This document shows, piece after piece, positions 40,666 through 48,200 of a stretch of DNA of 64,000 bases. Every line of letters begins with the position of its first letter. Position 1 is the stretch's first letter. The notes beneath the pieces are model-generated. The model did no database searches, was not told where the DNA came from, and saw only the letters and a list, made by a program, of their open reading frames with translations. Source of the DNA: Rhodospirillales bacterium. Its GTDB lineage: Bacteria; Pseudomonadota; Alphaproteobacteria; TMED109. Where the stretch lies: contig JAPPED010000015.1 in the NCBI GenBank assembly GCA_028824295.1, forward strand, positions 62,001 through 126,000, written 5' to 3'. The position numbers and the translations under genes were made by a program.

Positions 40666-41214
40666 TTACTCAGCCGGCAGTTCGACGGGGCCCAGAAGGC
40701 CGGCCTCCAGCAGTTCGGGTATGAACCCGAACATTTGCTTCTTCTCGATCCGGTCCGGGTAAAGGACCCCGTCAAGATGGTCGCATTCATGCTGCACGAC
40801 GCGGGCGTGAAATCCGTCGGCCGTCCGGTCGATCAGCTGACCCGCCGCGTCGAGGCCGCGGTAGTGAATTCTCGAGAAGCGTGGCACGAGCCCGCGCATA
40901 CCCGGTACGCTCAGACAGCCCTCCCAGGCCTCGTCCGAATCTGCGCCCACCGGTGAAATGTCGGGGTTGATCAGGACCGTCATCGGCACGGGAGGTGCAT
41001 CGGGATATCGAGGGTTGCTCTCCACGCCAAATATCACGACCCGGAGCGGTACCCCGATTTGTGGCGCCGCAATTCCCGCGCCATCGCAGGCTCGCATGGT
41101 ATCGAGCATGTCGCCAATCAGGTCACCCAGAGCCGAGTCGCCGACGTCATCCACTGGATCGGACTTGCGCCGCAACCTCGGATCGCCCATCCGAAGGACA
41201 TTGCGTACTGCCAT
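40666..41214 (-). CDS. def: peptide deformylase (first copy)
   Basis: This 182-aa iron/zinc enzyme removes the formyl group from new proteins. All three motifs are intact: GIAAPQIG, EGCLSVPG and HECDHLDG. The ATG at 41214 follows AAAGGAG by 5 nt. Unlike the second copy (49553-50098) it is not next to fmt. It has a longer C-terminal tail ending in IPELLEAGLLGPVELPAE, and its second half diverges from the other copy, so it is probably a distinct subtype rather than a recent duplicate. Confidence 0.93.
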   Translation of the reverse strand: MAVRNVLRMGDPRLRRKSDPVDDVGDSALGDLIGDMLDTMRACDGAGIAAPQIGVPLRVVIFGVESNPRYPDAPPVPMTVLINPDISPVGADSDEAWEGCLSVPGMRGLVPRFSRIHYRGLDAAGQLIDRTADGFHARVVQHECDHLDGVLYPDRIEKKQMFGFIPELLEAGLLGPVELPAE

Positions 41215-41301
41215 CACCGCTCCTTTCGTGACGTCCAGACCCGGCGATTTGCCGGGGCGCCATGCCAGACCGCCAACAGAGTGTAGATACTGTAGGAACA
41301 T

Positions 41302-41517
41302 ATGAAATCAATCATCCGCGCGCCTACTGAACCTGGGCCTGCCAAGGCCGAGGCAGAGCCAGCGGAAATGCCCGGCCCGGACTTGCCCCGAGCGTCAATG
41401 GGAAACCCTGCCACCGCGAACGGGATCAGCCGCCCACTTCGAGAGTTCGCGTCGGGAACCGCGTCGCCGACGCAGGGTCCGAACGGCGCACCACCTCGAT
41501 GGAGAGCATCCATATGA
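41302..41517 (+). CDS. small Pro/Ala-rich ORF coupled to the Cys-repeat protein gene
   Basis: This is a 71-aa open frame with an ATG behind AGGA. Its TGA overlaps the ATG of the next gene as ATGA, the coupling arrangement used by real operons throughout this window. The product (starting MKSIIRAPTEPGPAKAEAEP) is rich in Pro, Ala and Gly and looks disordered. It has no recognisable domain or signal peptide. It could be a leader ORF that sets translation of the repeat protein, a small partner protein, or chance. Confidence 0.4.
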   Translation: MKSIIRAPTEPGPAKAEAEPAEMPGPDLPRASMGNPATANGISRPLREFASGTASPTQGPNGAPPRWRASI

Positions 41518-42269
41518 ATTCGAACGCAGCGCGGGTGGCCATTCGTGAAGGCGCGGCTGCATCCGGCCTGCGTGTCGACGGGAACCTCAATCTGGTCGGC
41601 TGCGCGGACGTAGCGTCACTGCCGGCCGATCTCCACGTCAGGGGAAGTTTGCACCTGAACAGCTGCACCGGTCTTGCGGAGTTGCCCGCTGGCTTGCGGG
41701 TTGGGGGCTACCTGGACGTGACGGGCTGCACCAGGTTGACGGGCCTGCCGACGGACCTCGACGTCGAGGGCAATATCAATCTGTCGTACTGCCTGGGACT
41801 GGTCGGACTGCCCGCCGGTTTCCACACCAAGGGCAGCCTAAGCATGGCTCACTGCACAGGGCTCTCCGAACTTCCGCCGGGATTGCAGACAGCTCGCCAC
41901 CTCATCCTGACCCGTTGCACCGGTTTGGAAACTGTCCCTGCGGACCTCGTGGTCGGCGGAAATCTCGAATTGACCTACTGCACGAGCCTGAAAATGCTGC
42001 CGGCCGCCCTCGCAGTGGGGGGCGGCCTTTACCTGAACAACTGCCGCGAACTGGCGGAACTTCCGGACGCTTTCCATGTGAAGCGCGGCCTCGATCTGAC
42101 CGGGTGCACGCGGCTCGAGGCGCTCCCCGACGATTTGCGCGTGGACGGGGATCTCGATCTGACCGGGTGCACGCGGCTGCAGGCGCTGCCCCCGGATCTT
42201 CAGGTGGGTGGAAGGCTGGTCGTCGACGGTTGCACGGGCCTTCGTCCCCGGCCTGAAACGTCAGGTTGA
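41514..42269 (+). CDS. leucine-rich-like repeat protein with eleven 21-residue Cys-containing repeats
   Basis: This 251-aa protein consists almost wholly of eleven exact 21-residue repeats (residues 18-248), consensus DL-x-V-x-G-x-L-x-L-x-x-C-T-x-L-x-x-L-P-x. A cysteine occupies repeat position 13 in all eleven (residues 30, 51, 72 and on to 240). This resembles short bacterial LRRs in which the Asn ladder position is Cys, so a solenoid with a buried cysteine ladder is expected. There is no signal peptide or membrane segment. The ATG at 41514 follows GGAGAG by 7 nt. The function is unknown; binding a protein, or a metal through the Cys column, is speculation. Confidence 0.75.
   Translation: MNSNAARVAIREGAAASGLRVDGNLNLVGCADVASLPADLHVRGSLHLNSCTGLAELPAGLRVGGYLDVTGCTRLTGLPTDLDVEGNINLSYCLGLVGLPAGFHTKGSLSMAHCTGLSELPPGLQTARHLILTRCTGLETVPADLVVGGNLELTYCTSLKMLPAALAVGGGLYLNNCRELAELPDAFHVKRGLDLTGCTRLEALPDDLRVDGDLDLTGCTRLQALPPDLQVGGRLVVDGCTGLRPRPETSG
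41565..42257 (+). repeat. eleven tandem 63-nt coding repeats
   Basis: The repeat units are exactly 63 nt each with no insertions, although the DNA has diverged so that only protein-level positions are constant. Two adjacent units (repeats 9 and 10) share GLDLTGCTRLEALPD and DLDLTGCTRLQALPP, suggesting more recent duplication there. Confidence 0.85.
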
Positions 42270-43503: not shown

Positions 43504-43710
43504 ATGGACACATACACGGCAGTCATCGAACGTTGCCGCGACACCGGCATGTATTTGGGCTACGTGCCCGGCTTCCCAGGCGCCGACAGCCAAGGCGAAA
43601 CGCTCGATGAACTCAACGCCAACATTCGTGAAGTCATTGCTTTGCTCCGCGAGGACGGGGCCCCCGAAAAAATCGGCGACTATATCGGCACGCAGACCGT
43701 CGTGCTGTAA
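43504..43710 (+). CDS. hicB: HicB family antitoxin
   Basis: This 68-aa protein has the HicB-like partial RNase H fold: YTAVIERCRDTGMYLGYVPGFPGADSQGETLDELNANIREVIALL. Short HicB proteins of this type bind and neutralise the mRNA-cleaving toxin HicA. The frame is intact. The gene lies 6 nt before the hicA remnant, in the antitoxin-first order. No strong ribosome site is visible before the ATG. Confidence 0.85.
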   Translation: MDTYTAVIERCRDTGMYLGYVPGFPGADSQGETLDELNANIREVIALLREDGAPEKIGDYIGTQTVVL

Positions 43711-43716
43711 CCGGCC

Positions 43717-43943
43717 GTGCCCGCCGTCCCGGACCTCAGGCCACGTGAAGTCATCGGCATTATAGAGACGCTCGGCTTCTCAGAGGTCCGCCAACGTGGC
43801 TCCCATAAACGGTTTCGCCACCCTGACGGCCGTACACAACCGTTCCCGTCCACCTTGGGCGTGATCTCTCGCCAATCCTGCTCCGTCAAATTGCTCCCGA
43901 TGTAGGTCTGACCGTTCACGACTTTGTCGCACATCGCCGATAG
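43717..43943 (+). pseudogene. hicA: HicA family toxin, frameshifted
   Basis: The GTG-started frame gives a normal HicA beginning (VIGIIETLGFSEVRQRGSHKRFRHPDGRT, with the catalytic GSH histidine) and then runs out of family sequence to a stop at 43905. From 43839 a second frame continues the HicA pattern as TVPVHLGRDLSPILLRQI and on to a stop at 43941-43943. An apparent 2-nt excess in the ACACA run at 43834-43838 explains the break. Repaired, the protein would be about 74 aa, the normal size. As it stands the toxin should be inactive while its antitoxin is intact; a sequencing or assembly error is the alternative. Confidence 0.82.
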
Positions 43944-44292: not shown

Positions 44293-44369
<77 letters not shown>

Positions 44370-45032: not shown

Positions 45033-46187
45033 TCAGCCGTTGCCGATGCGCCGGTACACGAACTCCGGAATCTCGCCCCCGGCCTCGCCGATGGGCATTT
45101 CCAGCACGTGCCGCTGCGGAGCGAACTCGCAGGCCGGGTCGGTCGTATCGGGGTCCCCGGTCAGGGCGAACGCCTGGCACCGGCATCCCCCCCAGTCGAT
45201 CTCGCGCCGATCGCAACTGCGGCACGGCTCCGGCATCCAGTCGGTGCCGCGGAACCGGTTGAAGGCGCTCGAGTGTTCCCAGATCCAGGCCAGCGGACGC
45301 TCGGTCACGTTCTCGAACTCCAGGAAGTCCAGCGATTCCGCCGCGTGGCAGGGCAGCACCTTGCCGGCGGGCGTGATGTTCAGGAACTGGCGGCCCCAGC
45401 CGCCCATGCAGGACTTCGGTCGGCGCGCGTAGTAGTCGGGGACCACGTAGTCGATCGCCAGGATCCCCTTGAGGCGGATCCGGGCCTCCTCGACGATCCG
45501 GGTCGCCTCATCGAGCTGGTCCCGTGTCGGAAGGAACGCCTGCCGGTTCTTGAGCGCCCACCCGTAGTACTGCACCTGGGCCACCTCGAGCCGCTCCGCG
45601 TCGAGCTCCACGGCCATCGCGATCATGGCTTCCAGGTGATGCAGGTTCTGGCGGTGCATCACGGCGTTGACGGTGAGCGGCAAGTCCGCGGCCCGGACCA
45701 TGCGGGCAGCTTCCTGCTTCTTGGCGTGTCCGCGGAAGCCCGCGATGCGGTCCGCGTTCTCGGCCTCCGTGTCCTGGAAGGAGACCTGCACGTGATCGAG
45801 GCCCGCCTCCCGCAGCCGGTCGAGCCGGGCCGGAGTCAGCAACACCCCGGAGGTGATGAGATTGGTGTAGAGCCCCGCCTTGGAGGCGTGCTCGACCATC
45901 TCTTCCAGATCCTTCCGAACGGTCGGCTCGCCGCCCGAGAAGTGCGCCTGCAGGATCCCCATGTCCACGGCCTGCGAGAGGACGCTCTTCCAGGCGTCGG
46001 TATCGATCTCTCGCGATGCGCGCTCCAGTTCGACCGGGTTGGAGCAGTACGGGCACTGGAGCGGGCATCGATGGGTCAGCTCGCAAAGAACGGCATAGGG
46101 AATCAGACGATTGCGGGAATCCGAGGTTCCGGTCGCCGCGGCGCATTCGGTCTGCGCGTTCACGGGGGCTTCAGCTTGGTCAATCAT
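45033..46187 (-). CDS. pqqE: PQQ biosynthesis radical SAM protein PqqE
   Basis: This 384-aa radical SAM/SPASM enzyme links the Glu and Tyr side chains of PqqA. CPLQCPYC gives the CxxxCxxC cluster site, and HFSGGEPTVR is also conserved. The C-terminal SPASM cysteines include SCMGGWGRQ, VLPCHAAE, EPCRSCDRREIDWGGCRCQAF and the later DPACEF. The ATG overlaps the pqqD stop by 4 nt. It is the last gene of pqqABCDE. Confidence 0.96.
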   Translation of the reverse strand: MIDQAEAPVNAQTECAAATGTSDSRNRLIPYAVLCELTHRCPLQCPYCSNPVELERASREIDTDAWKSVLSQAVDMGILQAHFSGGEPTVRKDLEEMVEHASKAGLYTNLITSGVLLTPARLDRLREAGLDHVQVSFQDTEAENADRIAGFRGHAKKQEAARMVRAADLPLTVNAVMHRQNLHHLEAMIAMAVELDAERLEVAQVQYYGWALKNRQAFLPTRDQLDEATRIVEEARIRLKGILAIDYVVPDYYARRPKSCMGGWGRQFLNITPAGKVLPCHAAESLDFLEFENVTERPLAWIWEHSSAFNRFRGTDWMPEPCRSCDRREIDWGGCRCQAFALTGDPDTTDPACEFAPQRHVLEMPIGEAGGEIPEFVYRRIGNG

Positions 46188-46474
46188 GCGATCACAAATC
46201 CCTTGTCAGCCAGGTTCTGGAGCATGGTGGTGACATCGCGTTCGATGTCCGCACGGGGGGCCTGGTCATACTTCGTGGCGAGTTCGTCCACCAGGACCGC
46301 CAGGGTCCGCGTGCCGTCCACGAGCTGGATGACTTCGCCCGCAATGGCGTCCAGCTCGAACACGCGCTCCGGCGCATTGATGATCCAGCAGTCGCGGGCC
46401 CGGTCGAACCGGAGTTTTGCATGCCGCGGCAGCCGCGGCACCGAGTCCAGGTTCAGGAGGAGACGCTCGCTCAC
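46184..46474 (-). CDS. pqqD: PQQ biosynthesis peptide chaperone PqqD
   Basis: This 96-aa RRE-fold protein carries PqqA to PqqE. RLPRHAKLRFDRARDCWIINAPERVFELDAIAGEVIQLVDG and the DVTTMLQNLADKGFV end are typical. I use the GTG at 46474, which overlaps the pqqC stop as GTGA and follows AGGAG. The longer open frame is pqqC in another frame. Confidence 0.94.
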   Translation of the reverse strand: MSERLLLNLDSVPRLPRHAKLRFDRARDCWIINAPERVFELDAIAGEVIQLVDGTRTLAVLVDELATKYDQAPRADIERDVTTMLQNLADKGFVIA

Positions 46475-47268
46475 GCCGCGTGCTCCTGATCCTGAGGTTG
46501 GGGTACAAAGCAGCCAGGGGGAATTCGTTTCGGTTCCACGTAGGCTGAATGCAACGCATCGAGCTGGGCCCAGAGCACGTCGGTCTTGAACCGCACCGCG
46601 TCGAGCACCGCGTCCTGCTCGACGCGGGTCCGGGCATTGCGGAGCACCCACGCGCGGCCGAAGTCGACGTCTCGCCGCGCTTGGTTGATGCGCTTCTTGA
46701 AATACGCCAGGGCGTAGTCGTCGGCCCATGCGTAGTGGCGGGAGAGACCGGCAATCCGCTCCCGGTGGATGGCCGGCGCGTACAGCTCGGTCAACGAGGA
46801 CGCGATCGCCTCCAGCACCGAACGCTCACGCACAAACGCGATGTAGGCGTCGACGGCAAAACGGGTGCCGGGCAAAAGGCCGGCGCACGAGCGGACGTAG
46901 TCGAGGTCGAGACCGAGGCGTTCACAGAGCTGGAGATAGCGGGCCAGCCCACCCGATCCATCCATGTCGCCTTCATGGTCGATCACGCGAGATCGCCACT
47001 CCAGCCGCAGATCGACGTCGGCGATCCGCGCCATGAGGGTCAGATCCTTGCGGGGGATGGAGCATTGGTAGTAGTAGCGATTTAGGGCCCAGGCCTGCAC
47101 CTGTCCGTGGTCGAGTTCGCCGTCGTGCAGCAGCCGATGGAACGGATGCAGGCTGTGGTAACGCTCTTCGCCGATCCGGGACAGTGCCGCCAGCATTTCC
47201 GGTTCGGTACGCGGCGGCTCGGTCTCCGTGACGGGCGCTCCGGGCACCATCGGCGCCGGTGCGATCAC
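46471..47268 (-). CDS. pqqC: pyrroloquinoline-quinone synthase PqqC
   Basis: This 265-aa cofactorless oxidase does the final ring closure and oxidation to PQQ. YHSLHPFHRLLHDGELDHGQVQAWALNRYYYQ, HEGDMDGSGGLARYLQL and the conserved RHYAWADDYALAYFKKRINQARRDVDF are clear hallmarks. The start is GTG at 47268, overlapping the pqqB stop (GTGA), with GGAG upstream. Confidence 0.96.
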   Translation of the reverse strand: MIAPAPMVPGAPVTETEPPRTEPEMLAALSRIGEERYHSLHPFHRLLHDGELDHGQVQAWALNRYYYQCSIPRKDLTLMARIADVDLRLEWRSRVIDHEGDMDGSGGLARYLQLCERLGLDLDYVRSCAGLLPGTRFAVDAYIAFVRERSVLEAIASSLTELYAPAIHRERIAGLSRHYAWADDYALAYFKKRINQARRDVDFGRAWVLRNARTRVEQDAVLDAVRFKTDVLWAQLDALHSAYVEPKRIPPGCFVPQPQDQEHAA

Positions 47269-48200
47269 AGGTCGATCTCCATCCCGTCGTAGGACACTTC
47301 CCACCCGGCGTCCTCGACGGCCCGGCGTTCCCGAGTGTCGGCCGACAGCACCGGGTTGGTCGTGTTGAGGTGAATGAAGATCCGGCGTCCGATGTCGAGG
47401 CCATCCAGACCGTGGAGCGAGCCGCCCTCGCCCGAAATGCTGGTGTGCCCCATCCGTTTGCCGGTCTTCACGCCGACTCCGTCGCGGACCATCTCGTCGT
47501 CGACCCAGAGGGTACCGTCAAAAAAGAGCAGGGGGGTGCCGCGGACGCGCTCGCGCACGGCATCGGTGATGGCGGCGCAGGCCGGCATGTAGTGAAACGA
47601 GGCGCCGCTCGATGTGGAACGGACGTGCAGGGCGATGGTGTCCTCGTCGACCGAGCCGAAATCGGGCCCCTTGGCTTCGTCTTCAAGCCAGAGGGCGACT
47701 TTTCCGGGAACTGCGAAGGGCGTGATCTCCAGGCCGGCGTCGCCCCCGGCAGCGTCCACGAGCGCCACCGGCTCGTCGAGCGTCAGGGTGCGCCGCTCCA
47801 CGAACGCGGGGTTCAGGACGTTGAAGATGGTGTTGGCCTCGAGCACGCCGAGCACGCGGGGGGTCGCGTAGAGGCTGAGCGGCTGCGATTCGCGAAGGTT
47901 CAGCAGCCCGGCGACATGGTCCACATCGGCATTGGTCAGCACTGCGCCGGTAATCGGACTGTAGCGAAGCGGCGCCTGGGCCGAGGGCTGGAGGACCGGA
48001 TTCTCAGCTATCTGCTGGCGTAGATCGGGGGAGGCGTTAAACAGGAACCAACGCGCACCGTCGTCGCTGACGGCGATGGAAGACTGAGTTCTTGAGGGAG
48101 TATCGGGGTCGCCGGCACGCGCCCGGCGACTATTCGGATGATTACAATTCCACTGCGGAAACCCCCCGCCGGCGGCTGCTCCCAGAACACGGATTTGCAT
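47265..48200 (-). CDS. pqqB: PQQ biosynthesis metallo-hydrolase PqqB
   Basis: This 311-aa metallo-beta-lactamase-fold protein starts IRVLGAAAGGGFPQWNCNHPNS and has LTNADVDHVAGLLNLRE at the metal site, both family-specific. PqqB is thought to hydroxylate the Tyr-derived part of the intermediate or otherwise mature it. It follows pqqA by 62 nt. Confidence 0.95.
   Translation of the reverse strand: MQIRVLGAAAGGGFPQWNCNHPNSRRARAGDPDTPSRTQSSIAVSDDGARWFLFNASPDLRQQIAENPVLQPSAQAPLRYSPITGAVLTNADVDHVAGLLNLRESQPLSLYATPRVLGVLEANTIFNVLNPAFVERRTLTLDEPVALVDAAGGDAGLEITPFAVPGKVALWLEDEAKGPDFGSVDEDTIALHVRSTSSGASFHYMPACAAITDAVRERVRGTPLLFFDGTLWVDDEMVRDGVGVKTGKRMGHTSISGEGGSLHGLDGLDIGRRIFIHLNTTNPVLSADTRERRAVEDAGWEVSYDGMEIDL

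Follow-up and report, generated by a model that had tools for sequence, protein, structure and literature searches.

Within the window, a 64,000-nucleotide stretch of a Rhodospirillales genome, a gene for a small leucine-rich repeat (LRR) protein stands divergent from a peptide deformylase-like gene, def (Table 1). Its frame can be opened at 41499 (41499-42269, 256 aa) or at a second ATG 15 nucleotides on. The earlier ATG is present only in the window genome and one relative, and the second, at 41514, is common to all seven orthologues, which bears out the start of the 251-aa protein in the original prediction. The ribosome-binding motif of the window copy has its equivalent in relatives, where GGAG or GGAAGAG is found at the corresponding spot ahead of the LRR gene. 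Orthologues with 69-92% identity occur in all six other genomes of the genus that were examined, at the same place beside def, and def itself is 83-98% identical and adjoins the LRR gene in every relative, with a calcineurin-like phosphoesterase gene (named by eye) past it. Against the window copy the LRR gene has a dN/dS of 0.19-0.28, indicating purifying selection. One of the seven orthologues ends at a contig end, and the conservation counts given here use the six that are full-length.

Table 1. Features of the LRR gene locus, in window coordinates
Feature	Position	Strand	Remark
Peptide deformylase-like gene (def)	40666..41220	-	Divergent conserved neighbour; named by eye from sequence
71-aa Pro/Ala-rich frame	41302..41517	+	Spurious ORF, judging by sequence comparison, in upstream intergenic/leader region
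Shine-Dalgarno-like GGAGAG	41501..41506	+	About 7 nt ahead of the 41514 start
LRR protein, 251 aa	41514..42269	+	Start at conserved second ATG; orthologue in 7/7 genus genomes
Eleven 21-residue leucine-rich repeats	41568..42260	+	Each repeat with Cys at the N/C position

The protein is unusually regular. It has eleven cysteines, at residues 35, 56 and so on to 245 of the 256-aa frame, with none elsewhere, and all ten spacings from one cysteine to the next are exactly 21 residues, so the eleven repeats with one cysteine at a fixed position in each, as originally described, are there to the letter. The pattern of each repeat is L-x-V-x-G-x-L-x-L-x-x-C-x-x-L-x-x-L-P and, counting from the cysteine, a proline recurs at +7 and a hydrophobic residue at -11, -5, -3 and +3. 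As DNA, adjacent repeats are 48-57% identical, apart from repeats 9 and 10 at 76%, and such low identity between neighbors means that recent DNA duplication is not their source; the 21-residue regularity is maintained by selection at the protein level and not by recent copying.

What such a protein might be was left as a layout matching no characterized system, and for the protein itself this was wrong, as it is an ordinary LRR solenoid, a known fold, with its cysteine at the position where the family usually has asparagine or cysteine. The LRR HCS consensus is LxxLxLxx(N/C)(x/-)L, with Asn or Cys at position 9 (PMC5976695, PMC9525666). Four of the five positions compared fit in the 12-residue form LxxLxLxxCxxL, the strand leucines at -5 and -3, the cysteine at 0 and the leucine at +3 all being in place; against the LRR reading, the first HCS leucine is displaced by one, with Val at -9 instead of a hydrophobic residue at -8. 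Pfam LRR scores are slightly under the curated cut-offs (25.1 versus 27.9 bits for LRR_EndoS, 17.8 versus 20.6 for LRR_1), and weak scores are common with models of short repeats. An AlphaFold2 model from single-sequence input (pLDDT 88.4, pTM 0.86) is an LRR solenoid with one short strand per 21 residues in repeats 1 to 10, each ending about two residues ahead of the cysteine, which supports the solenoid with a regular column of cysteines proposed from the letters alone. The best sequence match in the PDB is the plant NLR RPP1 (7crb, 1.4e-15), followed by the LRR protein of 8z5u (5.9e-11), with further matches to the LRR domains of Roq1, TpLRR and SspH1. In fold comparison (VIA-align) matches to solved LRR domains span Z 15-19, the top ones all being LRR solenoids, with 19.1 for SlrP, 18.9 for 8z5u and 18.6 for RPP1.

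In this confident prediction each 21-residue repeat contributes a short parallel β-strand (LxLxx), after which come the cysteine, at position 9 of the consensus, and a short return, LPxxL. By analogy with other members of the family, the cysteine side chains would be packed in the solenoid interior beside the strand ends, forming an Asn/Cys-type ladder that ties adjacent turns together. LRR precedent makes a structural role for the thiol column the probable one. A bacterial LRR protein with a described cysteine ladder is InlJ of Listeria (Bublitz 2008, via PMC7291126 and PMC9525666), and by that description its repeats, like those of the window protein, carry a stacked cysteine column. InlJ as described there is, however, a surface internalin that also has a MucBP domain, whereas in the window protein neither a signal sequence nor a surface anchor can be seen; it stops about 11 residues past its last cysteine and has no MucBP domain, so that an InlJ-type internalin was rejected. 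RPP1 has the same fold and a CxxLxxLP repeat with cysteine at the ladder position. In contrast to RPP1, the window protein has uniform 21-residue repeats, V-x-G before the strand, and no NB-ARC, TIR or other domain, being one small bacterial protein.

A metal- or redox-linked scaffold exploiting the thiol column had also been thought conceivable, and the cysteines of repeats 1 to 10 are indeed invariant across the six full-length orthologues and are the sole residue type so placed. However, they occupy the structural N/C position, which is buried in LRR proteins and is also cysteine in RPP1 and in an Acetobacter plasmid protein; no His, Asp or Glu companions stand at fixed positions; and the cysteine of the last repeat is replaced in three relatives, by Val, Arg and Arg. 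A metal or redox role thus finds no support and is very improbable. Equally far-fetched is a genus-specific LRR adaptor whose conserved concave face recognizes one important partner and whose cysteine ladder switches that face in response to redox state.

The second component of the original prediction was a coupled gene, the 71-aa frame overlapping the LRR gene by ATGA. It is readable at 41302-41517, but an alignment of the seven loci rules out a coupled two-gene system: the ATG at 41302 is absent in 6/6 relatives, which have TTA or CTA there, and the pattern of substitution is non-coding. Frame-breaking length changes are present in four relatives and stops in most; in G1 and G6 some 44 bases are missing from the middle of the region, and in G4 the frame is open by chance, yet without a start codon at that site. 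Its dN/dS is 0.59-1.41, versus 0.19-0.28 for the LRR gene, and among close relatives substitutions fall evenly over the three codon positions. The ATGA overlap arises because the LRR gene itself starts ATG-AAT (Met-Asn); in one relative the start is ATG-GAT and hence there is no TGA. When random sequences of the same composition were simulated with the TGA of the ATGA kept in place, about 11% had an open frame of 71 aa or longer ending there by chance, and the window contains 360 ORFs of that length or more. An upstream ORF with an ATGA overlap in GC-rich DNA can thus be due to pure chance, and on this comparison of sequences the 71-aa frame is leader DNA, a chance reading frame and not a gene. 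A search for homologues that keep both repeat and upstream ORF had been suggested; the repeats and cysteines 1 to 10 are kept, the upstream ORF is not. A structured leader RNA was also considered, and an Rfam search matched nothing but a tRNA-Arg at 44296-44369.

A point new here is the conservation of the predicted concave face, as assigned from the LRR pattern and DSSP. Of the 40 sites at its exposed positions (-6, -4, -2 and -1), 35 are invariant, versus 22 of 80 at other variable positions (Fisher p 3e-10, with sites in related genomes counted as independent). As the residues concerned vary from repeat to repeat, the constraint is more than mere repeat consensus, and near-invariance across the genus suggests that the partner is probably the same genus-wide. 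The conserved face thus points to one conserved binding partner, and the protein-binding role originally offered as one possibility is strengthened. The N-terminus has no visible hydrophobic signal sequence, for which reason a cytoplasmic location is predicted. The LRR protein is most likely a cytoplasmic protein-binding scaffold: we put at roughly 85% the probability that it is a stand-alone protein of about 251 aa whose concave strand face has a cytoplasmic binding partner, most likely a protein. Its gene would be a stand-alone unit divergent from def, with no need for an upstream peptide. So regular a Cys-type LRR, with its set of orthologues intact and a conserved candidate binding face mapped, makes a partner search practical, though the importance is modest.

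The partner could instead belong to an animal host, for instance a sponge, with a eukaryotic-like LRR protein being delivered or exposed to it and the concave face binding a host protein. The repeats resemble LRR domains of plant NLRs and of type III effectors, part of the sponge-symbiont literature discusses LRR and ankyrin proteins as eukaryotic-like, and some members of the genus have large LRR or ankyrin proteins. Yet the window genome is without an ankyrin (PF12796) match, the protein lacks a visible signal sequence, and the gene for the FlhA/SctV export gate (PF00771) is absent in 7/7 genus genomes, leaving no type III route; host delivery is unlikely. Effectors of the XopL, XopAC and XopAE type are rejected on the same absence and because their models, matched over the repeats only, reach 28-53 bits against NCBIfam cut-offs of 450-600. 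In YopM/IpaH/SspH-type effectors the variable segment contains the LP pair twice (xxLPxLPxx or xxLPxxLPxx; PMC5976695), whereas each repeat here has one LP and then xxL without a second proline, which sets the protein apart from that class. Lack of FlhA/SctV also removes a flagellar role like that of 8z5u. Chain 0 of that structure, an LRR protein of the polar flagellar motor, shares the repeat V-x-G-x-L ... L-x-x-LP and superposes on the window model with an rmsd of 2.0 over 175 residues (31% identity), but the cysteine column is missing in the aligned part.

The orthologue is absent from 21 genomes of the family's other genera and from nearly all of the class sample; past the genus, the search for a wider distribution in the class turned up nothing but one family with a weak match to the repeats. 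A phage or plasmid origin was rejected, with weak repeat-level matches only and no DNA match in plasmids, as was a role in anti-phage defence (PADLOC, no match). A hypothetical protein of an Acetobacter pasteurianus plasmid, WP_160256037.1, is 35.5% identical over 90% coverage and has a cysteine in nearly every repeat, but its repeats are less regular and its gene is divergent from a DNA methyltransferase gene, with no annotated coupled ORF upstream. A Deinococcus plasmid protein (L027:1441-2442) combines Cys-type LRRs with a DUF6745 domain and is encoded beside STM4011/STM4012 radical SAM genes. Genomes G006 and G005 have frames of 1172-1268 aa with many LRR_8 repeats (L019, L020 and L021) that the window genome does not have. 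Elsewhere in the window, an HicB-like antitoxin frame followed by an HicA toxin frame (HicA_toxin, 3.6e-10) occupies 43504-43905 on the forward strand, upstream of the tRNA-Arg, and on the reverse strand at 45033-48200 PqqB-, PqqC-, PqqD- and PqqE-like frames for PQQ biosynthesis lie in a row (by eye, from the ORF list).
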